The position numbers were made by a program, and so were the translations under genes. Of a DNA stretch of 35,058 nucleotides, positions 3 through 31,938 are shown piece after piece (the first letter of the stretch is position 1; each line of letters starts with the position of its first letter). Source of the DNA: Nitrososphaerota archaeon (GTDB lineage: Archaea > Thermoproteota > Nitrososphaeria > Conexivisphaerales > Conexivisphaeraceae); the NCBI GenBank assembly GCA_009903775.1, contig WYEM01000052.1, positions 1-35,058 on the forward strand. Direction: 5' to 3'. The notes below the pieces were generated by a model. That model ran no database searches. It was not told the DNA's origin and saw nothing but the letters and a program-made list of their open reading frames with translations.

Positions 3-1598
3 ATGGCGGCCGTCGGCCACGAGGTGGTCCTGACGAGCGAGCCGGCCATAGCAAGCGACAGCTCGGGCTCGACGGTCCTCGGGTTCGTGAGCGCCCTCCC
101 CGAGAACGTGCTGAGCGACAGGATCGCATCCATGCTCTTCAGCGTGGAGGCCGACAGCGATGGGATCGCCAAGAGGGCGCCTTATGGCCTCGCGAAGGTG
201 GAGGCTAAGCTCCGGGAGCTGGGCATCGACGCGGTCATAGCCAGCCCGTACGAGCTGCACAAGGTGATAGGGGAGAGGACCAGGGTGGTCGGCATATACA
301 CGATGGACGGCATGGGCTACAGTTACGGCTCCGGCATCACTTACTGGATCGTCAGGCTGGCCGGAATCCCGTACGTCGGGCTGCCGTTCATAGCGAGATC
401 GTTCAGGTACGTGGTGAGGAGCGCGAACCTATCCAGGTTCAGGAGGAACTTCCGGATCGTGGTGGGGGGCCCCGCGGCCTGGCAGATAACGGACAGCGGC
501 ATGCAGGACGAGCTGGGCATAGATCACGTGTTCGAGGGCGAGTTCGAGCGCGACGGGCCGGCGTTCTTCAGGTCGCTGCTGTCGGGCGAGCCCGTGCCGC
601 GCAGGTTCTACGCGAGGCCCGCCGACGTCGAATCGGTGCCCACGATAGTGACGCCGTCCAATGGGGGGATCGTGGAGGTCACCAGGGGGTGCGGGAGGGG
701 GTGCGCCTTCTGCACGCCCAACATGAGCGGCATGATAAGGTCGTTCCCCTTCGACGGCCACATAGACAGGGAGATAATATTGAACCTCGACAGGGGAGGG
801 GCCGATAACATAAACCTCCACAGCGAGGAGTACTTCAGGTACGGGGCCAGCGGGATAGACCCGCGCCCGGAGAAGGTGCTCGAGCTCACGAGGAGGGCAT
901 ATGCGCTCGTGAAGTCCCGCGGCCGCGACAAGACGATATCGACGGACTTCACGACCGCCGCGGTGGTCGTGCAGGCCCCCCAGCTCGTGAGGAGCGTCGG
1001 AGAATACATCAACGAGGGCGGGCGGCGCACGTTCATAGAGATGGGGATAGAGACGGGCTCGCCGACCCTGATCGAGAGGTACATGAGGGGGAAGGCCCTG
1101 CCGTACAGGCCCGTGGAATACCCCGAGGTCGTCGAGCGCGCGATCGGAATCCTGAACGACAGCGGGTGGATAGTCGTGGGCACCATGATACTGAACTTCC
1201 CCGGGGAGACGGACGACGACATCATAGCTGACCTCGAGCTCCTGGACAGGCTGAAGGGGCTGAGGGTCGTGACTTTCCCCCTGCCCCTCATACCGGTCGC
1301 GGCCTTCAGGAGGAGGGGCTTCACCGCGCTGGACGACATCCTGGAGGACCCGCTGAGGAGGGAGTTCGTGCTCAGGGCGCTCCACAAGGCGTTCGATGAC
1401 CTGAGCGAGGGCGTCAGGATGGTGGCCGCGGGAGTGAGGGACCCGCTGAAGAGGGCGGGGATAATTGCCGCGGGGCTCGTGCTGCTCAGCCTGGTCAGGC
1501 GCCGCTACGCCGCGCAGCTGGGCTCCTTGGCGATCCCCCGGCCGGTCCACTCCAGTCCCGGCCAGCGCGTCGGCGTCTCGGTGCCGTCCACCCGCCGA
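3..1598 (+). CDS. Radical SAM protein (5' end possibly outside the window)
   Basis: CGRGCAFC (CxxxCxxC) motif; B12-binding-like N-terminal region. ORF track runs to 1730, but the first in-frame CGA is at 1596-1598 and codon usage degenerates afterwards. Confidence 0.8.
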
Positions 1599-2594: not shown

Positions 2595-2934
2595 TGGTGA
2601 ATCGCGCCCCGATTTCATGGAAATGCTCGACTAAACCTGAGGAACTCCGCTCCGGGACCGGGTACCTACGTAAATAATTTGGTTAGGCTTAAGCGCGCAA
2701 CAGGTCGCGGCCGCGTCCATCGCATTGCTCCTCAGGGGGAGGGCCGAGTACCTGGCCCGCCCCCGGGTAGGGATTCCCGAGGGACCTCTACCGAACTCGC
2801 GTGGGATGCGAGCCCTCGATGCGCCCGGTCCGGGCGTCGCCCGAGGAGCGCTCTCGATCCCGAGGCATCAGCTCAGCCTTCCGCCGCGAGATGGCGGGCA
2901 ACGCGTAAATATCATATCAGATATCGGGCGCGAT

Positions 2935-4638
2935 ATGGAGTACAAGTGGGTCGTCCTCACCAACACGACCCTCGGCGTCATAATGTCCTCGATGAATATG
3001 TACATAGTGCTGATATCCCTCCCCGTGATCTTCAGGGGGCTCGGGATAAACCCATTCCTCCCCGGGGAATTCGTCTACCTCCTATGGGTCCTGATGGGAT
3101 ACAGCGTCGTGATGGCGTCAGTGCTCGTCACGTTCGGCAGGATATCCGACATGTACGGGAGGGCCAGGGTCTACACGTGGGGGTTCATCGTGTTCGCCGC
3201 GGCGTCGGTGCTCCTCTCGCTGATACCGAGCGGCTCCGGGAACTCGGGGGCGCTCCTGCTGATAGTCCTGAGGCTCGTGCAGGCCGTCGGAGGGGGGCTC
3301 CTGATGGTGAACAGCACCGCGCTCCTCGCCGACGCGTTTCCACCCCGGGAGAGGGGGAAGGCGCTCGGGCTCAACCAGGCGTCGTTCATAGTGGGGTCGT
3401 TCCTCGGGCTCATACTGGGTGGCCTCCTGTCGAGCTACGACTGGCACCTGGTCTTCTTGGTGAGCGTGCCGTTCGCGGTCGCGGGCGCGCTGTGGTCGCT
3501 ATTCAGGCTCAGGAGGACCCCGGGGACCGGCGCGGTATCCCTGGACGTGGCGGGGAACCTGACGCTGGCCGCGGGCCTGCTCGCGATATCGCTCGGCCTC
3601 ACGTACGCGCTCGTGCCCTACGGGGGCTCGCAGATGGGATGGGGGAACCCGTGGGTCATCGCGTCGTTTCCGCTGGGCGCGCTCCTCTTCGTCCTCTTCG
3701 CGATCAGCGAGAGGAGGGCCAAGGCGCCTCTCTTCGACCTGTCCCTCTTCCGCGTGAGGCCATTCACCTACGGATCCATAGCGCTCTTCCTCAACTCGCT
3801 GGCGAGGGGCGCGATAATGTTCCTCGTGGTGATATGGCTCCAGGGGATATGGCTCCCGCTCCACGGATACTCTTGGGAGTCGACGCCGTTCTGGGCGGGC
3901 GTCTACATGATGCCCATGCTTATCGGGACCGTCATCATGGCCCCCATCGGGGGGACGCTGACCGACAGGTACGGCGCGAGGGCCTTCGCCACCCTCGGCA
4001 TGGTGATAATGGCCGCATCGCTCCTCGCGCTCGCCGCGCTCCCATACAATTTCAGCCTCCCCGAGTTCGAGGCCATCTTGTTCGTGAGCGGGCTGGGGGG
4101 CGGCCTCTTCTCCGCGCCGAACACGACCGCGATAATGAACTCGCTGAGGCCGCAGGACAGGGGGACCGGGAACGGCATGAGGCAGACCTTCAGCAACGTG
4201 GGATCCACGATAAGCATGGCGCTGTTCTTCTCGATGCTCATAACGTTCTTCACGATGTACGTCCCGGGGGAGATAGCGTCCGCTGCCGCGTCACATGGCC
4301 TCCCGGGCCAGGTGGCATTGTTCCTCTCCTCGATACCGGCCAGCGGCCTCCTGTTCGCTGCGTTCCTGGGGGTGAATCCCGCCTCGGCCCTTCCGCAGTC
4401 GGCGCTGGCGCTCCTCCCGCCGAGCGCCGTCCAGCTGCTGAACTCCAAGACCTTCCTCCCATCCGTGATAGGGCCGCCGTTCATGGACGCGCTGAGGATC
4501 TCGATCTACATTTCCGCGGCGCTCGTGGCTGTGGGCGCGATGTTCTCGTGGATGAGGGGCGGGAAGTTCGTCTACGAGGAATCCGGGGCCTCCGAGCGGG
4601 CTCCTAATCCCACTCCAGCGAATGCCTCCAGTTCACGA
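2935..4638 (+). CDS. MFS transporter, DHA2/EmrB-like
   Basis: Starts MEYKWVVLTNTTLGVIMSSMN; multi-TM; GRISDMYGRARVY motif. ORF track ends at TAA 4662, but the last codons are TCA CGA GGG CGA AGC CAA TGT CGA CGC TAA, with the first in-frame CGA at 4636-4638. Confidence 0.85.
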
Positions 4639-4995: not shown

Positions 4996-5991
4996 TCGCG
5001 CGGGCCGCGCCCTCCCCAGCAGCCCCTCGAGCTCCCCCTCCACGATCCCCAGGGCGTCGAGCCCCATGCCCTCCGCGCGGATCAGCGCGTACCCCATGGC
5101 CACGCCCTCCTTGACGTACCCCCTCTCGAAGGCCCTGAGCCCCTCCATGCGCGACCCGGCGAACGAAGTCCTGGAGTGCTCGACCGCCCCCACGCCCACC
5201 TCCCTCGCGAGGCCGAGCAGGTCCGACTCCGGGTCCTCCACTATCCACCTGGTGGTCAGGATCCTCAGCCTGCCCGCGTCCCCTCCCATGGCCCTGTAGA
5301 GGGCGGCCGCGGCCGCCATCTGGGTGCCGCCCGCGAGCGCGACCTCGCCGCCGGACTCTGCGGCGCCGAGGGCGATCGCCGCCAGCGCCAGGTGCACGGG
5401 GTCCCCGACCTCGGCCGCCGCTGAAATGGCGTCCAGCGGAGGGGATATGCGCGATACCGCCTCGCGCACCACCGCCTCCTTCAGCGCCTTCGGGTTGCGG
5501 GGGGCGGCGCTGCTGGTCCTCCCCCAGGCGTCGTATCCCAGGGCTATGAGGATCGCCATGGCGGTCGTGGTGCCGCCCGGCATGGACTCCCCCAGGACCA
5601 GCCTTCCGAGGGGCGCTAGCTGGGACCCCAGGAGGCGGGCGTTGGCCGCCAGCTCCTCGGCCGCCGCGCGCGGCATTGCCCCGCGCCTTATGTCCCCTCC
5701 CGGGACCCCGCCGAGGGCGACGCGCGGCACCCTGGGCGGGACCCTGGATCCGGCGTCCACGACGACCTTGGGGACGCCCGCGGTGAGGGCCCTGGTGATG
5801 ACCGCGGGGGTCGGAATCCCATCGGGCGTCGTGGGCACGACGCCGAGGGTCCGGGTCCTCCCGAGCAGCAGGTACTCGGCGTCAAGCGCCGGCGTGTAGT
5901 GGGTGGCCTCCGGGCTGGGGCCGGCGATCGAGATCCCCGGAATCAGGGAGACGTCGGTCGTCCCCACGACGAGGACGAGCACGTCGCGCAC
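4996..5991 (-). CDS. Nicotinate-nucleotide--dimethylbenzimidazole phosphoribosyltransferase-like (CobT/UPF0284 family)
   Basis: GESMPGGTTTAMAILIALGYDAWGRTSSA...AGGTQMAAAAALYRA. Conserved region ends ...EGLLGRARPA followed by CGA CGA; the extension to 4756 has non-coding codon usage. Confidence 0.8.
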
Positions 5992-6629: not shown

Positions 6630-7046
6630 TCGCTTCACGACCAGGACGGGCCTCCTGGACCTCGTCACTATACCCATCGAGACGCTGCCCAGGAGAGCCC
6701 TCTTCAGCGCCGAGAGCCCCCTGCTGCCCGTCACTATCAGGTCCGCGCCGATAGAGTCGGCGTGCTGCAGCACCGCCTCCACAGGATCCCCCACCAGCAC
6801 GGATCCCTCCGCCTCCACCCCCCTGGACCTCGCGGCGGCGACCGCCTCGCCGACCTCGCGCTCCGCGCGCTCCCTCATCTCCCCGATCAGCCTGTCATCG
6901 AGCTCGAGCCCGACCAGGGTCCCCGTGTCCACGACCTTGACCACGTGGAGGCTGGCGCCGCAGGCCGCAGCCAGGTCCACCGCGACGCCGAGGGCCCTCC
7001 TGGCGTTCTCCGATCCGTCGTATGCCAGGAGCAGTCTGCCGAGCAT
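6630..7046 (-). CDS. Universal stress protein (UspA family)
   Basis: LLLAYDGSENARRAL...DLIVTGSRGLSALKRALLGSVSMGIVTRSRRPVLVVK then CGA. The ORF track reads on to 5943 through the whole DUF998 gene. Confidence 0.88.
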
Positions 7047-8365: not shown

Positions 8366-8629
8366 AAGCGAGTAGAGGGCGGAGCCCCAGGATCATGAGC
8401 CCGCCCTCGTCGGGGGCGCGGCCTCCCGGGGTGCCCCTTCACCTCAGCCTGGTCCCCCACGGCCTCGAAGACTCCCATGCCCCGACAGCGCCCTCCCGAT
8501 GTGCGCCGCACGCGACCGCCGCTCCGCCCCGGGCGGCGCAGGGTGCCGCGCCCATCCATCCCGCCTTTGCGCGCTGAAAATCGCGCGAAAACGAATTATT
8601 ACCCTGAGGCAATCGTTCGCGCAGCGGGC

Positions 8630-9388
8630 ATGGGCGCCAGGAACCTGGAATCGGTGATCGCGGAGCTCGTGAGCGTGGAGAGGCCCGCCGGCCTCCTGGC
8701 GCTCTCCGCGGCCGTCACGCTCGGCCTCTACGCGCTGGGGCTCCTGATGCTCAGGGTGCCGGCGCTCGGCGGCCACTACATATCCGTGTTCCCCGCGGCG
8801 TTCGCCGTGATATTCGCGCTCGCCGTCTACGGCCGCAGGTCCAGCGTGAGCGCGCTGAAGCTGTACCTGGTCACGATGCTCGTGTCGTACGTGACGATCG
8901 CGGCGCTCGCGGCCCCGCCCGGCTTCTACACGGCGCTGGCGTCCCCATCCACCGTGTCGCAGTTCGTCGAGCAGGTGGACAGCTTCAGGTCCGCTTACAC
9001 GACGCTCCCGTCGATGTCGTTCGCGATATTCAGGCACAACCTCGAGATAGACCTCCTGTCGTACGTGCCGATAGTGGGCGCGGCGCTCCTCGGCTTCTCC
9101 ATGATGGACACCTCCTCGCTCGTGTGGGCGGTCAGCGCTTCCTCCATGTGGAGCGGCTATCACCTGTGGTACGCCTACGTGCTCTCCATCCTCCTCGCCC
9201 CCGACACCTTCACGGAGTTCTCGTCCTACGCGATAGCCATGGCCGGGGGTTTCGAGCTCTACATGGCGCTGACCGGAGGGGGTCGCCGCAGGCTCCGGCT
9301 GTCCCTGGCGCTGCTGGCGCTCTCCATATGCTTGCTCTACGCGTCCGCCGTCATCGAGTCGTGGCTCATACTGTACGTGGGGCTCCGA
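8630..9388 (+). CDS. SpoIIM/DUF95-like membrane protein
   Basis: LLAPDTFTEFSSYAIAMAGGFELY motif; multi-TM; ends ...LILYVGL then CGA CGT CGA. The ORF track end at 9499 overlaps the Rieske gene. Confidence 0.65.
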
Positions 9389-11511: not shown

Positions 11512-12156
11512 ATGCGGCCAACGCCCCTCAGGCTGACGGTGGGTCCGCTGATGTCCAACTCCTACCTGCTGTGCGACGGCCCGGAGTGCCTGCTCGTCGA
11601 TCCCGGCGGCGATCCCGAGGCTCTGCTGGGCGCGGTTGGGCGCAGGAGGCTGAGGGCGGTCATCGCGACGCACATGCACTTCGATCACGTCTGGGGGGCG
11701 AGGCGGATCGTCGATGCCACCGGGGCGACGTTCATGGTTCACCGCGCTGACTGGGAGATCGCGGGGGACCTGCTGTCTCTGGCGGAGGAGCTGGGCTTCT
11801 CGGCCCCGGAGATCCCCCGGTCTGCGGAGTTCCTGGAGGACGGCCAGGTGCTTTGGCGCGGCCTCAGGGTCATTCACGCGCCGGGGCACACGCCCGGCTC
11901 GCTCTGCCTGATGGGCGACGGTTTCCTGCTGACCGGCGACACGCTGTTCGCCGGCTCCGTGGGGAGGGCCGACACCCCGTGGTCCGACCCCGACGCGCTC
12001 CCGCGCTCCGTGTGCCGCATTTATCGGGAGGTCCCCCATCACTACACGATACTTCCGGGCCACGGCCCCCCATCGACGGTGGGCGAGGAGGCCGAGCACA
12101 ATCCGGTGATCAGCGCCCGCGCCTGCGGCGATCGGTCCAGCAGCGCGATCCTGTAG
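11512..12156 (+). CDS. MBL-fold metallo-hydrolase (glyoxalase II-like)
   Basis: THMHFDH, GHTPGSLCL, LPGHGPP motifs; TAG stop. Confidence 0.88.
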   Translation: MRPTPLRLTVGPLMSNSYLLCDGPECLLVDPGGDPEALLGAVGRRRLRAVIATHMHFDHVWGARRIVDATGATFMVHRADWEIAGDLLSLAEELGFSAPEIPRSAEFLEDGQVLWRGLRVIHAPGHTPGSLCLMGDGFLLTGDTLFAGSVGRADTPWSDPDALPRSVCRIYREVPHHYTILPGHGPPSTVGEEAEHNPVISARACGDRSSSAIL

Positions 12157-12761
12157 CCGTCGTAGGACCTCACCTCCCTGCAGCCGACGTCGATGGACGC
12201 GCCAAGCCTCCTGACCTGCGTGACCAGCGAGTGGTACTCGCCGGCCTCCCCTATTGGGCTTATGCCCATCCTCCTCGCGGACGCGAGGAACGGGCCGAGC
12301 TCGCCGCGGCCGACGCGCCTGCACACGAGCTCCCGGGCCCTCTCCTCAGCCCCTATCACCACGAACGAGAGCTCCTCCAGCTCCCCCTCGAGGACCCTCT
12401 CCTCGTCCATCCCCCAGAGCGGCTCCGAGAGCTCCGCGCCCGCCTCCGCCGCCAGCGCCTCCATGTACCTCAGGTGGTCCTCCACGCCCTGGTCGCCCGC
12501 CACTATCCGTGAGACGCCGAGCGACCTCATGAGCGCCGCCTCCTCGGCCATCTCCCTCCCCCTGTGGACCCTGAGCACCACCACGGGGACCGACATGGCG
12601 CCCGCCAGCTCCAGGGCCTTCGAGATGTTGATCAGGTGCGGCGACGGCCTCGGGAACTCGTAGACGAACGTGACGAACAGGTCGACCGGCCACTCCAGCA
12701 GCGCGGCGTAGACCGAATCCTTCCCGCCCGAGAACAGCGCGGCCCTCAGCGCCATCCCCAT
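12132..12761 (-). CDS. Diphthine--ammonia ligase-like (Dph6) ATP-pyrophosphatase
   Basis: ALFSGGKDSVYA; GEAGEYHSLV. Ends ...GYRIALLD then CGA (12132-12134). Track end is 12042, a 115-bp overlap with the MBL gene. Confidence 0.85.
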
Positions 12762-12808: not shown

Positions 12809-13468
12809 ATGCCCGAGTCCGTCTACGGAATCTACCGCATCCCGATAGAGCGCGTGAACGGGAACTCCTACCTGGTCGTCAGGGGCGACGAGGTGATCGT
12901 CGTGGACACTGGGATCCCCGGGAGCGCCGAGAGGATAATCGGGGAGGTCGGGGCGCTGGGGCCCGGGAGGAGGATCTCCGCGATAATACTCACCCACTAC
13001 CACCTGGATCACTCGGGCTCGGCGGCGGATCTGAGGGCCGCGACCGGCGCCAAGGTGTACGTCCACGAGGCCGACGCGCCGTTCGTGAGCGGCGAGCGGA
13101 GGCCGCCGCTCCCCCCGAATGTCCCGAAGGAGACGCTGGACGCTTACTCGCAGATGAGGCCCGTGCGGCCCGACGTGGTCCTGAGGGACGGGGACGTCGT
13201 GTTCGGCTTCCGCGTCATCCACGTCCCTGGCCACACGCCCGGGTCCATAGCGCTCCACGACGGCAGGGCCCTCTTCGCCGGGGACAACGTGAACGTGAGG
13301 GATGGATCCATAGTGGGATCGCCCGCGCCCTACGACTGGGACAGCTCGATGGCGAAGGAGAGCCTCGGGAGGCTCCTGTCCCTCGAGTTCGATGTCCTGC
13401 TCCCGGGCCACGGCCCGCCGGTGATCGGGGACGCGGCCGCTAAGGCCAGGAGCGCCCTCAAGGTCCGA
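12809..13468 (+). CDS. MBL-fold metallo-hydrolase
   Basis: LTHYHLDHSGSAADL, GHTPGSIAL, LPGHGPPV; ends AAKARSALKV then CGA at 13466-13468. Fused in frame to the downstream gene in the ORF track. Confidence 0.88.
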
Positions 13469-17088: not shown

Positions 17089-17613
17089 GTGAACCCCTTG
17101 TTCTCGGAGGCCGGGGACCTCACGAAGCCCGTGCCGGTGAAGCTCGCGTTCCTGCACGGCCTGGTCGCCGGATGGGGCGTGGGCGCGTACGCGCTCATAC
17201 TCATGACCACGGTGGCGCCCGCGATGCCGAGCCCCCTCCTCGCGTGGATGCCCGGGGCGCTCTTCGGGGTCGGCACCATGACGATGCAGGTGGCATGGGG
17301 CGCCGGATTCGCGCGGTGGCTGACGTCCATGAAGCACCTGAGCCGGGAGGGAGTGGCGCTCGTGGGCAAGACCATAACGTACTACGTCCTGACGTACGGC
17401 GGCATAGTGTTCGCGGCGGCGGGCGCGCTCGTGATGGCGTTCCCATGGGTGCTCAACCTGTCGCTGCCCACCGGCATAGGCATCCCCAACCTGGACGCGA
17501 TAGACATAGGGTTCGTGCTGGTCATAGCGACGGTCGCGGTCCTGGGGTTCGCCGGGTACCGGATGGGGGTCAGGAGGGCGCGTTCCCTCGGCCTGGTGTC
17601 GCCGGGCAGTCGA
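17089..17613 (+). CDS. NicO/UreH-like metal permease, C-terminal part
   Basis: KLAFLHGLVAGWGVGAYALILMTTVAPAMPSPLLAWMPGALFGVGTM; ends ...RRARSLGLVSPGS then CGA TAT CGA TAT CGA. Fused in frame to the next gene in the ORF track. Confidence 0.7.
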
Positions 17614-25775: not shown

Positions 25776-26704
25776 GGGGCGGCCTCCTCCATCTCCTCCT
25801 CCCGGTCTTCTTCGCGCTATCCCTGTTCCTCGGGCCCTACGGGCTCATCAACCCGTTCTCCCACGGCCTGGGGGCGTTCGTCCTCGAGCTCAGGCTCCTC
25901 AGGGCCCTCGCAGCCTCGCTCGTCGGGCTCGCCCTCGCCGCCTCCGGCTCCGGGCTGCAGGCGCTCCTCAAGAACCCCCTCGCTGATCCCTACATACTCG
26001 GCGTCTCGTCGGGCGCGGCCCTCGGGGTGCTGGCGACGATCGCCGCCGGCTTCATCTGGCCGCTCGCGGTGTCTCTCTCGGCCCTCCTGGGGGGGCTCGC
26101 GGCCCTCGCTCTCGTCATGGCCGTCTCGTCCGCGCTCGGCCTGACGAGGACCTCCATGGTGCTCGCCGGCGTCGCCCTCTCCTACGCCCTGAGCTCCATC
26201 GACATGATCATCATGATGGACCTGGGGCCCGCGGTCCAGGGATCCCTCGCGTGGCTGTTCGGGACGGTCGCCTACGCGCTCTGGGGCGAGCTGGCCTACG
26301 CGGCGCCGCTGATGGCCGCGGGCGCGGCATGGATATTCCTGAGGGCGGGCCACCTGGAGTCGCTGATGCTGGGGGACGACGTGGCGGAGTCCATGGGCGT
26401 GAGGGCGCGCAGGCTGAGGGCCGAGGTGGCGGTGGCCTCGGCCCTCTCGACGTCCGCGGCGGTCGCGGTGGCCGGCCCCGTGGGCTTCGTCGGGCTCGTG
26501 GCCCCGTGGATCGCCAGGCTGGGATCCGGGGGGGCATTCCGCAGGATCTACCCGCTCTCCCTGTCGCTCGGCGCCTCGCTCACGGTGGCCGCGGACCTGG
26601 CCTCGAGGTTCGTGGAGCCCGGGGGCATGGCGCCCCTGACCTCGATAACGGCCCTCATGGGGGCCCCAGTGCTCGTCTACCTGCTGGCGAGGTGGCGGGG
26701 TTGA
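25772..26704 (+). CDS. FecCD/BtuC-family ABC transporter permease
   Basis: ALAASGSGLQALLKNPLADPYILGVSSGAALG; GPVGFVGLVAPWIAR; TGA stop. Confidence 0.92.
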   Translation: MRGGLLHLLLPVFFALSLFLGPYGLINPFSHGLGAFVLELRLLRALAASLVGLALAASGSGLQALLKNPLADPYILGVSSGAALGVLATIAAGFIWPLAVSLSALLGGLAALALVMAVSSALGLTRTSMVLAGVALSYALSSIDMIIMMDLGPAVQGSLAWLFGTVAYALWGELAYAAPLMAAGAAWIFLRAGHLESLMLGDDVAESMGVRARRLRAEVAVASALSTSAAVAVAGPVGFVGLVAPWIARLGSGGAFRRIYPLSLSLGASLTVAADLASRFVEPGGMAPLTSITALMGAPVLVYLLARWRG

Positions 26705-27459
26705 ACCCTGTGCTGGAGGCCGACTCGCTATCCCTCGCCTACGGCGGCCGCGTCGTGCTGGAGGGGCTGAGCTTCGAGGCGTACCCGGGCGAGGTCCTCG
26801 CGGTGGTGGGGCCCAACGGGGCCGGGAAGACTACGCTGCTCAGGGCCCTCTCGGGCTCGCTGGAGGTGGCCGGCGGCGCCCTGAGCTGCTGCGGATTCTC
26901 CGCGGCGGCCGGCGAGCGCCTGGGCGCTGGCGACCGCATCTCCTACGCGCCCGCGTACCCGGACGTCGATCCCTGGATCTCCGCGCTCGACCTGGTGCTC
27001 TCCTACAGGATGGGGCCCCGCAGGCCCTGGGCGAGGCCGTCCCGCGAGGACGTGGGCGCGGCCCTGGAGTCGCTCCGGCGCCTGGGCGCGGCGGCGCTCG
27101 GCCCCCGGAGGACGTCCGAGATGAGCACCGGCGAGCTCAAGATGGTGATGCTGGCCGCGGCGCTCTCCAGGCGCTCCGACGTGCTGCTGCTGGACGAGCC
27201 GCTCGCCTACCTGGACCTGAGGAACCAGTCGATCGCCATGTCCGCGCTGAGGGCCGAGGCCCGCAGGGGCGCGCTCGTGCTCGTGGCCTCGCACGAGCTG
27301 CACCTGCTGAGGCTCTACGCCGACAGGGTCCTGGTGCTCTCGGGCGGGAGGGCGGTCGCGATGGGGCGCGTGGACTCCGTGCTCAGCGAGGACCTGCTGG
27401 AGAGGGCCTACGGCGTGCCCCTCAGGGAGGAGCGCGCCCTGGTCCCGTCGATCCATCGA
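26701..27459 (+). CDS. Iron/cobalamin ABC transporter ATP-binding protein
   Basis: VVGPNGAGKTTLLRALSG; MSTGELKMVMLAAALSRRSDVLLLDEPLAYLDL; ends EERALVPSIH then CGA 27457-27459. ORF track extends to 27528. Confidence 0.9.
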
Positions 27460-27556: not shown

Positions 27557-30199
27557 ATGGATCACGAGCCTGAGACCGGCTTCGGCTGGGAGCTCGAGGA
27601 CGGCACCCACGTCTACACGAACAGCACGCTGGAGGGCCCCGTCCTGGTGTACGTCAAGGGCGGGAAGATCGTCAGGATCGAGCCGCTGAAGCTCTCGCCC
27701 GAGGATCCCGAGTCCTGGACGATCGAGGCCCGCGGGCGCAGGTTCTCTCCCCCCAGGAAGGCGCTCGTCCCCTCCTACATACTGGCCGAGAGGGCGAAGG
27801 TGTACTCCCCCAAGCGCGTCCTCTACCCGATGAAGCGCGTGGACTTCGATCCGAACAAGAAGGACAGGAAGGCCGAGAACAGGGGCAAGTCGGGCTACGA
27901 GAGGATAAGCTGGGAGGAGGCGCTCGACATACTCGAGCAGGAGATAACCAGGGTGCACAAGACTTACGGCCCCGGCGCCATCGGCACGACCTCCTCCTCC
28001 CATCACTCCTGGGGCATCATAGGGTACAGGCTGAGCGCCTACCTGAGGTTCATAGATATACTGGGCGTGACCTACGCTGATCACAACCCGGACAGCTGGG
28101 AGGGCGCGCTCTGGGGCGCCGTCCACATGTACGGCTTCAACTGGGGCGTCGGAGTGCCGGAGCAGAACGACCTCCTGACGGACGCCCTCCAGAACACCGA
28201 GATGATAGTGCTCTGGTCGGCAGACCCGGAGACCACCCTGGGCACGTACGCGGGCTACGAGAGCAACCCGTGGCGCCAGTGGCTCAAGGAGCTGGGCGTC
28301 AAGTTCGTGATAATAGATCCCTTCTACAACTATACGGCGGTCAACTTCGCTGACAAGTGGATAGCCCCGAGGCCGGGCACCGACACGGCGCTCGCCGCGG
28401 CCATAGCCTACGTCTGGATAAGCGAGGGGACGTACGACAAGGAATACGTGGAGAAGAGGACGATCGGCTTCGAGAAGTTCAGGGACTACATAATGGGCAG
28501 GGAGGACGGGGTCCCGAAGACCCCGGAGTGGGCCGAGAGGATAACCGGCGTGCCGGCCCGCGAGATAAGGGCGCTCGCCAGGGAGTGGGCCAGGAAGAGG
28601 ACGATGCTCGGCTTCGGCAGCAGGCCCGGCATGGGCGGCGCCGGCCGCGCCGCCTACGGCCACGAGTGGGCCAGGTACATGGTGGCGCTCCAGGCTATGC
28701 AGGGCGCCGGGAAGCCCGGCGTCAACTGGTGGTCCACGAGCACCGGGTCCCCCACCACGCCCAACGTGCCGGAGGACTCCAACCCATACGGCTTCTTCTT
28801 CCCGGGCTACGGCGACGGCGGGATATCGGGCGACACGGGGTACACCGGCGCGGCCAGGATCCTGCCGCGCGGCTTCGTCAGGATCCCGGTGACCGACAGG
28901 ATCAACCAGCCCGGCGGGCAGCACGTGCTCAGGCTCTTACTCCCCGAGGCCATAATGAGCCCCCCAGTGGAGTGGAGGGGCAAGGGCTTCAACACGATAT
29001 CCATAGAGGCGCAGTTCAAGAAGTACAAGTACCCGGAGGACGGCTACTCCGAGATAAGGATGTTCTGGCGCTACGGCGCCGCCTACATAGGCACCATGAC
29101 CAACACCAACAGGTGGGTCAGGATGTACAGGAGCCCCAAGCTGGAGTTCGTCGTGAACCAGAACCCGTGGTTCGAGGGGGAGGCCAAGTTCGCCGACCTC
29201 ATACTCCCGGCGGCGACCAGCTTCGAGCGCTGGGACATAGGCGAGTTCTCCAACATATCGGGCCAGTCGCTCGAGAGCGTGCAGTTCGTCAACCACAGGA
29301 TAATAGCGCTGAGCATGAAGGCGATAGAGCCGCTCGGGGAGTCCAAGAGCGACTACGACATATTCGCCATGGTCGCGAAGAGGCTGGGCTTCTACGAGAA
29401 GTACACCGAGGGAGGGATGACGCAGCTGGACTGGGTGAGGAGGTTCTTCGAGAGGAGCGACCTGCCCAAGTACATCTCGTGGGAGGAGTTCAAGAGGCGC
29501 GGCTACTTCGTGGTCCCGGTCAAGAAGCGCCCCGTGACCCCGGCGCTCAGGTGGTTCTACGAGGGGAGGAGGAGGGACACCATAGGGGCCGGGCCGGCCG
29601 GGGGCGGCGTGATGGGGATGCCGGACGGCACGGGCCTCGGCACCCAGAGCGGCAAGATAGAGTTCGAGTCGAACAGCCTGAAGAGGTTCGACCCGAACGA
29701 CCCCGAGAGGCCGCCGGTCCCGCACTACATACCCTCGTGGGAGGGGCCCGACACGCCGCTCGCGAAGAAGTACCCGCTCCAGCTGATGACGCCCCACGCG
29801 AGGTACAGCTTCCACACGCAGCACGACGCCAAGGAGACCTGGATCGATGAGATACCGGAGCACAGGAGGAGGGGGCCGGACGGCTACTTCTACAGGGTGA
29901 TGAGGATAAACCCGGCCGACGCCGCGCCGAGGGGGATAAGGGACGGGGACCTCGTGAAGGTGTACAACGACAGGGGGGCCGTGATCTGCATAGCGGAGGT
30001 GACGGAGAGGATAAGGCCCGGCGTCGTGCACTGCTATCAGGCATCCGCCGCCTACGATCCGATAGGCGAGCCGGGGGAGTCCCCCGACAGGGGCGGGTCC
30101 GTGAACCTGCTCACGCCGCACAGGTTCCTCTCGAAGAACGCGAACGGGATGGCGCCGAGCAGCGCCCTCGTCGAGGTCGAGAGGTGGGAGGGATCCCGA
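27557..30199 (+). CDS. DMSO-reductase-family molybdopterin enzyme resembling pyrogallol-phloroglucinol transhydroxylase large subunit
   Basis: No N-terminal FeS motif or Tat signal; TYADHNPDSWEGALWGAVHMYGFNWG; paired with an FeS subunit carrying a C-terminal beta domain. Last codons TCC CGA TGA. Confidence 0.75.
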
Positions 30200-31089
30200 T
30201 GACCCGCTACGGGATGTTAATAGACGTGGCGAAGTGCAACGCCTGCTACAACTGCGTCTCAGCCTGCAAGGACGAGTTCTGGGACAACGATTATCCCCCG
30301 TACTCCAGGGCTCAGCCGAAGTTCGGCCAGAACTGGGTGAGGGTCGACAGGAGGGAGAGGGGGCACTTCCCCTACATAACCGTCGCCTACATGCCGGTCA
30401 TGTGCCAGATGTGCAGGGACCCGCCCTGCCTCAAGGCGGCCAGGGACGGCGCGGTCTACGTGAGGGAGGACGGCATAGTGATGATAGATCCCGAGAAGTC
30501 GAGGGGGCAGAGGCAGATAGTGGACGCTTGCCCCTACGGGGTCATATACTGGAACGAGGAGCTCCAGATACCCCAGAAGTGCACGTTCTGCGCCCACCTG
30601 CTGGACCAGGGGCGGAAGCAGCCCAGGTGCGTCGACGCCTGCCCCACCGGCGCTATGGTCTTCGGGGACCTCGACGACCCGGACAGCGAGCTGAGCAGGA
30701 TGATCAGGTCCCTCTCCTCGGGCCAGCCCTACCGCGGCGAGGAAACGAAGGTCCTCTACTCGGGGAAGCCCGAGGCTTACGAGCCGAAGCCGGGGGTGGG
30801 GCCCAGCGTCCTCTACCTCAACCTGCACAGGATGACGAAGCTCTTCATAGCCGGGAGCGTGGTCCTGAGGGAGAGCGACGACCTCGTGGAGGGGGCATCC
30901 GTGAGGCTCGAGGCGGGCGGCAGGGAGATCGCGGCGACGACCACCGACGCGTTCGGCCAGTTCCACTTCGATGGCCTCGAGCCGGGGAAGTACACCGTGA
31001 GGGTGGAGTACCCCGGCCACAGGCAGCTGTCGGTCGACGTGGAGGCGCGGGAGAGCACCTACCTGGGCTACCTCTTCCTCGAGAAGCGA
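30199..31089 (+). CDS. 4Fe-4S ferredoxin-type subunit with C-terminal transthyretin-like domain (transhydroxylase small subunit-like)
   Basis: CNACYNCVSACKDEFW, CQMCRDPPCL, CTFCAHLLDQG; C-terminal VRLEAGGREIAATTTDAFGQFHFDGLEPGKYTVRVEYPG; ends YLFLEK then CGA 31087-31089. Confidence 0.85.
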
Positions 31090-31143
31090 GGGGCTCCCGC
31101 GACCCAGCAACGCTTAATTCAGTAGCCATGGAGATCCGCCGTG

Positions 31144-31938
31144 ATGTCGCAGGCCTTCACGCGGATAATCTATGAGAAGCGGGACGGCGTGGCGTGGATC
31201 ACCCTGAACAATCCCGAGAGGTACAACGCGCTCGAGAAGGAAATGCGCGCTGAGCTCAGGGAGGCGCTGGAGGACGCCCGGAGGGACGACTCCATAAGGG
31301 CGGTCGTGATAAGGGGCTCCGGGAAGGCCTTCAGCGCGGGCGGCGACATAAGGGCCATGCTCGAGTGGACGCCCACGGTGGCCATGAGGGAGTTGAAGGA
31401 GCTGGGCACGGCATTCGTTATAGAGCGGATCATAAGGGAGATGCCCAAGCCGGTGATCGCGATGGTCCACGGCTACTGCCTGGGCGGGGGCTTCGAGCTG
31501 GCCATGTCGTGCGACATCGTGGTGGCGTCTGAGGACGCGAGGTTCGGCAGCCCCGAGATCAACATAGGACTGATACCCGGCAGCGGCGGGACCCAGATGC
31601 TGCCGAGGCACGTGGGGGAGAAGAAGGCGAAGGAGCTGATATTCACGGGCGATCAGATAACGGCGCGCGAGGCGGCCGAGCTGGGGCTCGTGAACAGGGT
31701 CGTGCCGCCCGACAAGCTCGAGGAGGCGGTCGAGGAGATCCTGGAGAAGCTGAAGTCGAAGAGCCCCGTCGCCCTCGCCGCCGCGAAGGAGGCGATAAAT
31801 GCCTCCCTGGAGCTCGGCCTGACCCACGGCATCATGTACGAGGCGCAGGTCTTCTCGAGGCTGTTCTCCACGAAGGACCAGAAGGAGGGCGCGAGGGCCT
31901 TCCTGGAGAAGCGGAGGCCCCAGTGGACGGGGGAGCGA
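31144..31938 (+). CDS. Enoyl-CoA hydratase/isomerase family protein
   Basis: AFSAGGDIRAM, GYCLGGGFELAMSCDIVVASEDARFGSPEINIGLIPGSGGTQ; ends AFLEKRRPQWTGE then CGA 31936-31938. ORF track continues in frame into the cyclase. Confidence 0.93.

Follow-up and report, generated by a model that had tools for sequence, protein, structure and literature searches.

A CGA codon at the junction of two transhydroxylase-like genes

The window analysed here (35,058 nt; contig C7) belongs to G000, a metagenome-assembled genome (MAG; 1.45 Mb in 117 contigs, 79.8% complete, GC 0.67) of the Conexivisphaerales, a group with a single isolate, an anaerobe that reduces sulfur and iron (PMC10833072). It carries adjacent genes for the molybdopterin large subunit and the iron–sulfur (FeS) subunit of a transhydroxylase-like enzyme. 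An earlier note had singled out their junction, CGATGA, proposing that the sole in-frame CGA of the large-subunit open reading frame (ORF), its last codon before TGA, is the primary stop and that the same letters supply the ATG of the FeS subunit. The coordinates bear out this layout: the ORF (27557–30202, forward strand) comprises 881 codons followed by TGA, its only CGA, against 56 AGG and 12 CGC among the Arg codons, has codon index 880 (30197–30199), and the FeS-subunit ATG (30199–30201) overlaps this CGA by 1 nt. The functional label also holds, the best PDB match of the large subunit being the pyrogallol hydroxytransferase large subunit (4v4c, residues 20–880, E = 1.5e-296).

We compared the junction with two congeners, G001 (one contig, 1,593,902 bp, 99% complete) and G002. 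The G001 large-subunit ortholog (91% identity) ends ...VEVERWEGS, TAG, followed directly by ATG ACC CGC, while the window has at the same place ...VEVERWEGS, CGATGACCCGC. A paralog in G002 also terminates WEGS*MTRYGM. Together with the genome-wide ortholog comparison below, the G001 TAG supports CGA as the primary stop of a predicted large subunit ending ...ERWEGS, with TGA as a backup. The earlier note had further described an ATGA-type translational coupling. The overlapping stop/start junction stands, although relative to CGA its type is CGATG, the 1-nt counterpart of TGATG, and the ATGA arises solely with the downstream in-frame TGA.

CGA occupies gene ends across the genome

The flagged CGA is not a chance occurrence, since CGA stands at the protein-end position of about 12 further gene ends in the window (Table 1) and the same pattern recurs genome-wide. 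In sampled stretches of the two genomes (G000, 808 kb; G001, 800 kb), we examined the first terminator at 227 aligned ortholog ends and counted TGA 94, CGA 66, TAG 58 and TAA 6. Because control codons can also stand first through sheer frequency (CGC, 78), a test restricted to the exact stop column was needed. In the 212 G000 orthologs compared, the codon aligned exactly with the G001 stop was TGA in 66, TAG in 38 and CGA in 33, the last against a null expectation of 2.25% from flanking triplets (P = 4e-18). The G001 stops replaced by CGA were TGA (24), TAG (7) and TAA (2).

Coding character also falls away at these ends. In 76 CGA-ended genes on 32 pieces, the coding score dropped from 0.21 to −0.65 across CGA, compared with −0.57 after canonical stops (Wilcoxon 4e-14), and GC content at third codon positions (GC3) fell from 0.88 to 0.65. 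The score came from a GC3-seeded model; an earlier self-trained model was dropped after it had locked onto antisense frames in the GC-rich DNA. The next canonical stop lies a median of 21 codons beyond CGA, and more than 100 codons beyond it in 15 of 71 cases. Of 75 CGA ends, 12 form a CGATG overlap with the next start; among 98 TGA ends, 10 do so as TGATG. Where a mechanically called ORF appears to fuse two genes, it divides at CGA. On this comparative evidence, CGA almost certainly terminates translation in G000 and would end about 30% of its genes, alongside TGA, TAG and a few TAA.

Two simpler accounts were weighed against these data. One is a sequencing or assembly artefact, through consistent T-to-C miscalling of TGA or contamination of the bin. 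G000 is a fragmented and incomplete MAG, which lends the idea some plausibility, but its probability is negligible: CGA ends are spread over the 32 separate pieces, TAG and TAA ends have become CGA as well, which rejects miscalled TGA, no mere base swap separates the flagged junction from its G001 counterpart (CGATG against TAGATG), and miscalls cannot produce the interior depletion described below. The other account takes CGA as an ordinary, very rare Arg codon, with the downstream stretches as real C-terminal extensions or fusions. The TGA directly behind the flagged CGA would fit, as would the existence of interior CGAs aligned to Arg and the retention of tRNA-Arg(UCG) in G001; nevertheless, with CGA in the congener's exact stop column, tails that score like intergenic DNA and in 15 cases exceed 100 codons, and domains and whole genes separated at CGA, we consider it highly improbable.

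Interior CGA codons and the cognate tRNA

Direct counts of 71,010 aligned interior codons in G000 and G001 gave CGA 5/7, CGT 22/167, AGA 47/284 and CGC 1518/1183, respectively. Base composition alone does not explain the scarcity of CGA, since codons ending in A are otherwise much commoner. Elsewhere in the order and class, genera have CGA at 0.4–16 per 1000 codons, aligned mostly to Arg and alongside canonical gene ends; the depletion is therefore a genus-level feature. CGA at conserved Arg positions and at normal frequency, as expected of an ordinary Arg codon, was thus found in these outgroups but not in G000. Nor is there a sign of reassignment to another amino acid, as in the Codetta cases discussed below, the few interior CGAs aligning with Arg.

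The gene for tRNA-Arg(UCG), the cognate decoder, is intact in G001 and G002. A whole-genome search of G000 recovered it only as positions 29–75 (C88:577–623, 91% identity), with the 5′ part missing. In this 3′ half the anticodon arm, T arm and acceptor strand are intact, without decay in the stems or T loop, and argS, the arginyl-tRNA synthetase gene (C88 1172–3082), follows some 0.55 kb downstream. A hairpin-like inverted repeat, TTACGCGTG...CACGCGTAA, immediately precedes the tRNA half. Searches for the 5′ half nearby and across the whole genome returned other tRNAs and only one chance-like match in coding sequence (C15:3373). Nearly all other G001 tRNAs were matched in G000, Leu-GAG being the other possible absence. 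What is observed is that no intact tRNA-Arg(UCG) is present in an assembly about 80% complete; because of that incompleteness we regard its loss as likely rather than proven. The fragment could alternatively be an integration scar or one half of a split tRNA.

Two aragorn predictions were set aside after reading their sequences: a ‘tRNA-Arg tcg’ at C2:28511 is an intron-bearing tRNA-Asp (GTC), and a ‘tRNA-Pyl’ on C91 is a Gln (CTG) tRNA with an intron. Identical tRNA-Arg(TCT) genes lie at the ends of contigs C40, C41 and C66 of G000, so the assembly breaks at tRNA-containing repeats and completeness judged by tRNA counts is affected. In G003, from the sister genus, tRNA-Arg(UCG) (C1, about 1480–1560) seems to be interrupted by 14 extra nucleotides at position 29/30, within the 5′ strand of its anticodon stem; this would be an unusual intron site.

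The release factor and the proposed reassignment

G000 encodes a single release factor, aRF1. Directly after its YxCxxxF motif it carries H132Q (human numbering), a change found in G000 only, with His in all 24 other aRF1s compared; no other column invariant in relatives shows a change peculiar to G000 next to such a stop-reading motif. For eRF1, CGA is a first-base near-cognate of UGA, and C is rejected via the NIKS loop, which is braced by Arg68 (PMC5681627). One contig scan with the G000 aRF1 as query gave a match in G002 only. The aRF1s of three relatives, G014, G016 and G019, contain a long in-frame, intein-like insert within YxCxxxF, ending ...FMVHN before the conserved Cys.

Taking the gene ends, codon counts, tRNA and release factor together, we think it very probable that CGA has been reassigned from Arg to stop in G000, and we infer the following order of events. 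CGA would nearly have vanished from genes in the ancestor of the genus. Its decoder, tRNA-Arg(UCG), would then have been lost or crippled in the G000 lineage, and the single aRF1 would have come to terminate at CGA as a first-base near-cognate of UGA, perhaps aided by H132Q. Mutations from stop to CGA would thereafter have been tolerated, and CGA could have spread over gene ends whatever the previous stop. At the flagged junction, the next gene would start inside the CGA stop, in a CGATG coupling of the TGATG type. The few conserved CGAs kept in frame, including two in aRF1, would still be decoded as Arg at least sometimes. The full mechanism, combining tRNA loss with acceptance of CGA by aRF1, is probable.

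Several observations weigh against this proposal. The full CGA-stop state is seen in one genome only; in G001, stop use at CGA amounts to at most a handful of cases, four of them strict. We had considered that G001 also uses CGA stops, but its raw tail enrichment, measured against flanking DNA, did not exceed the values for control codons. The idea is kept as a bare possibility. The G000 assembly could simply lack an intact tRNA-Arg(UCG) that the organism still has. In the G000 aRF1, the NIKS loop and Arg68 look intact, and for this reason we infer, rather than observe, that aRF1 is the factor reading CGA. Finally, confirmed G000 orthologs contain six interior CGAs, two in aRF1 and one each in pelota, FtsY, topoisomerase VI-B and a SPOUT-like protein (named from sequence motifs, without a family match). 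Each of the six aligns with Arg and has CGA as its G001 counterpart too (neutral p ~0.05 at a background codon identity of 0.606), and a strict CGA stop would truncate essential proteins at these sites. In pelota, an aRF1 paralog, the conserved in-frame CGA lies 35 codons ahead of the gene end (G000:C12 and G001).

The standard appearance of the first-base residues of aRF1, together with the missing intact tRNA, would suit a different outcome, in which CGA is unassigned and the ribosome stalls and is rescued (for example, by pelota/ABCE1) instead of being released by aRF1; the conserved CGA in pelota itself could be read in the same way. Such rescue would be costly at about 30% of genes, the CGATG couplings suggest orderly termination and restart, and the unique aRF1 change lies beside a stop-reading motif. 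Stalling is thus an unlikely explanation. Editing of terminal CGA to UGA in the mRNA (C to U), with the code unchanged and interior CGAs unedited, would account for terminal stops beside six conserved Arg codons. It would require hundreds of sites, the derivation of CGA from TAG and TAA as well as TGA ends gives no sign of an edited TGA class, and no editing enzyme came to light, though none was looked for; editing is very unlikely.

A dual code, in which CGA is a stop by default and Arg at a few programmed sites read by an intact or trans-spliced tRNA-Arg(UCG) outside the assembly, is a possible, if doubtful, alternative. It draws on the conservation of all six interior CGAs and on the undecayed tRNA 3′ half, but the six sites have no shared sequence context that we could find, and the 5′ half was recovered neither nearby nor genome-wide.

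Under the reassignment proposed above, some decoding of CGA as Arg must nevertheless persist in G000, because with strict termination at CGA aRF1 would end at residue 30. The in-frame CGAs of aRF1 lie at this residue, before the GTS loop, and at residue 126 (L123 in yeast), which is the x of YxCxxxF and matters for stop discrimination (PMC4482090). Both are at the same sites in G000, G001 and G002. The first site is also CGA in G003, G006, G008, G010 and G018, and the second in G007 and G009; the occurrence of each in other genera with ordinary CGA use weakens the idea that they are newly placed regulators. The two codons suggest leaky or self-regulating readthrough, a putative loop. A dual-meaning code, in which CGA is a stop in hundreds of genes and aRF1 limits itself through its own CGAs at residues 30 and 126, seems rather unlikely; if true, full-length aRF1 would be made only under high readthrough of CGA as Arg, CGA termination would limit aRF1, and pelota and a few other genes would share the feedback.

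Relation to known code changes

Stop-to-sense changes are common, while sense-to-stop reassignment is, to our knowledge, known only from organelles; we found no archaeal or other cellular case in the open-access literature. In vertebrate mitochondria, AGA and AGG act as ‘stop’ codons at a few gene ends by a debated mechanism. They resemble the present case in being Arg codons without a tRNA at gene ends, except that hundreds of genes are implied here. Bacterial prfB (RF2) autoregulates by an in-frame UGA via a +1 frameshift. As in prfB, the aRF1 gene contains a codon that its product is predicted to read as stop, although its CGAs are in frame and at conserved Arg positions.

The closest parallel lies in the mitochondria of Sphaeropleales (Scenedesmus-type) green algae, where UCA (and UCG) changed from sense to stop, the tRNA is missing and mtRF1a is altered (PMC6821328). 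In both systems a sense codon that differs from a canonical stop by one base appears to have become a stop, with lineage-specific release-factor changes near stop-reading residues and codon loss apparently preceding capture; the tRNA missing in the algae is, in G000, found only as a 3′ half. In contrast to the algal case (an organelle with few genes, a bacterial-type RF1 and the second-base change UCA), G000 is an archaeal genome with an aRF1 of the eRF1 family and a first-base change, CGA for UGA, and here a congener, G001, shows codon depletion only. A Codetta survey of 250,000 genomes reported bacterial changes of CGA/CGG to Trp and of CGG to Gln, with CGA/CGG changing to amino acids only (PMC8629427). 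There, as here, rare Arg CGN codons shift meaning in connection with loss or change of CGN tRNAs; those cases are sense-to-sense, in bacteria of 0.26–0.38 GC, whereas G000 would be a sense-to-stop case in a 67% GC archaeon. We expect such a change to escape profile-based inference, which scores amino acids while allowing ‘no meaning’.

The genus and its sister offer apparent before-and-after stages, with normal CGA use in G003, depletion with the tRNA kept in G001, and stop capture with a broken tRNA gene in G000, and models of codon change therefore become directly testable. The proposal also raises the question of how an eRF1-type factor accepts C at the first position. Automatic annotation that applies the standard code to such genomes would merge genes, lengthen C termini and give wrong protein sizes.

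Other CGA ends in the window

In high-GC3 ORFs of the window, CGAs seem to lie either where a protein ends, with a tail of low quality behind, or at the boundary of two proteins that share a mechanically called ORF. The corresponding features are collected in Table 1.

Table 1. Predicted features of the window with ends at, or apparent ends at, CGA
Feature	Position	Strand	End and remarks	Basis
Pyrogallol-transhydroxylase-like molybdopterin large subunit	27557..30199	+	Predicted coding sequence ends at CGA (...ERWEGS)	G001 ortholog ends WEGS*; PDB match
CGA, putative stop codon	30197..30199	+		Window sequence; G001 ortholog
In-frame TGA right behind CGA (putative backup stop)	30200..30202	+		Window sequence
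FeS subunit	30199..31089	+	...LGYLFLEK-CGA (31087-31089); G001 ...LGYLFLEKQ*	Ortholog comparison
Enoyl-CoA hydratase	31141..31938	+	CGA 31936-31938; mechanical ORF continues into separate cyclase gene (to 32982)	Pfam
Metallo-beta-lactamase-fold protein	12809..13468	+	CGA 13466-13468; G001 ...SLGR*	Pfam, ortholog
Universal stress protein	6630..7046	-	CGA 6632-6630, ...PVLVVK-CGA; G001 ...SVLVVK*	Pfam, ortholog
ORF	12132..12761	-	CGA 12134-12132, ...IALLD-CGA; G001 ...VALVD*	Ortholog
Membrane protein	8477..9388	+	CGA 9386-9388, ...LILYVGL-CGA; G001 ...LILYVGA*; real start downstream of 8477	Ortholog
Integral membrane ORF	17089..17613	+	CGA 17611-17613; mechanical ORF continues into secreted CARDB/NEW3-domain protein	Pfam
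Radical SAM protein	3..1598	+	Apparent end CGA 1596-1598; low-coding tail to TGA 1730	Coding score, Pfam
MFS transporter	2725..4638	+	Apparent end CGA 4636-4638; start downstream of 2725	Pfam
ORF without Pfam match	4996..5991	-	Apparent end CGA 4998-4996; 80-codon low-quality tail	Window ORFs
ABC transporter ATPase	26251..27459	+	Apparent end CGA 27457-27459; start downstream of 26251	Pfam

A Pfam scan of ten window ORFs found no domain spanning a CGA. The Usp domain of the universal stress protein ends at residue 138, just ahead of its CGA, with the canonical stop 229 codons further on. The hydratase ORF splits at CGA between ECH_1 (13–264) and a separate Cyclase domain (364–516). In the metallo-beta-lactamase ORF, the domain named (16–201) is followed by a molybdopterin oxidoreductase from residue 281, which continues to CGA 15728 or TAA 15769. 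In the FeS subunit, CGA is followed by 11 non-conserved codons and then TAG (31123–31125).
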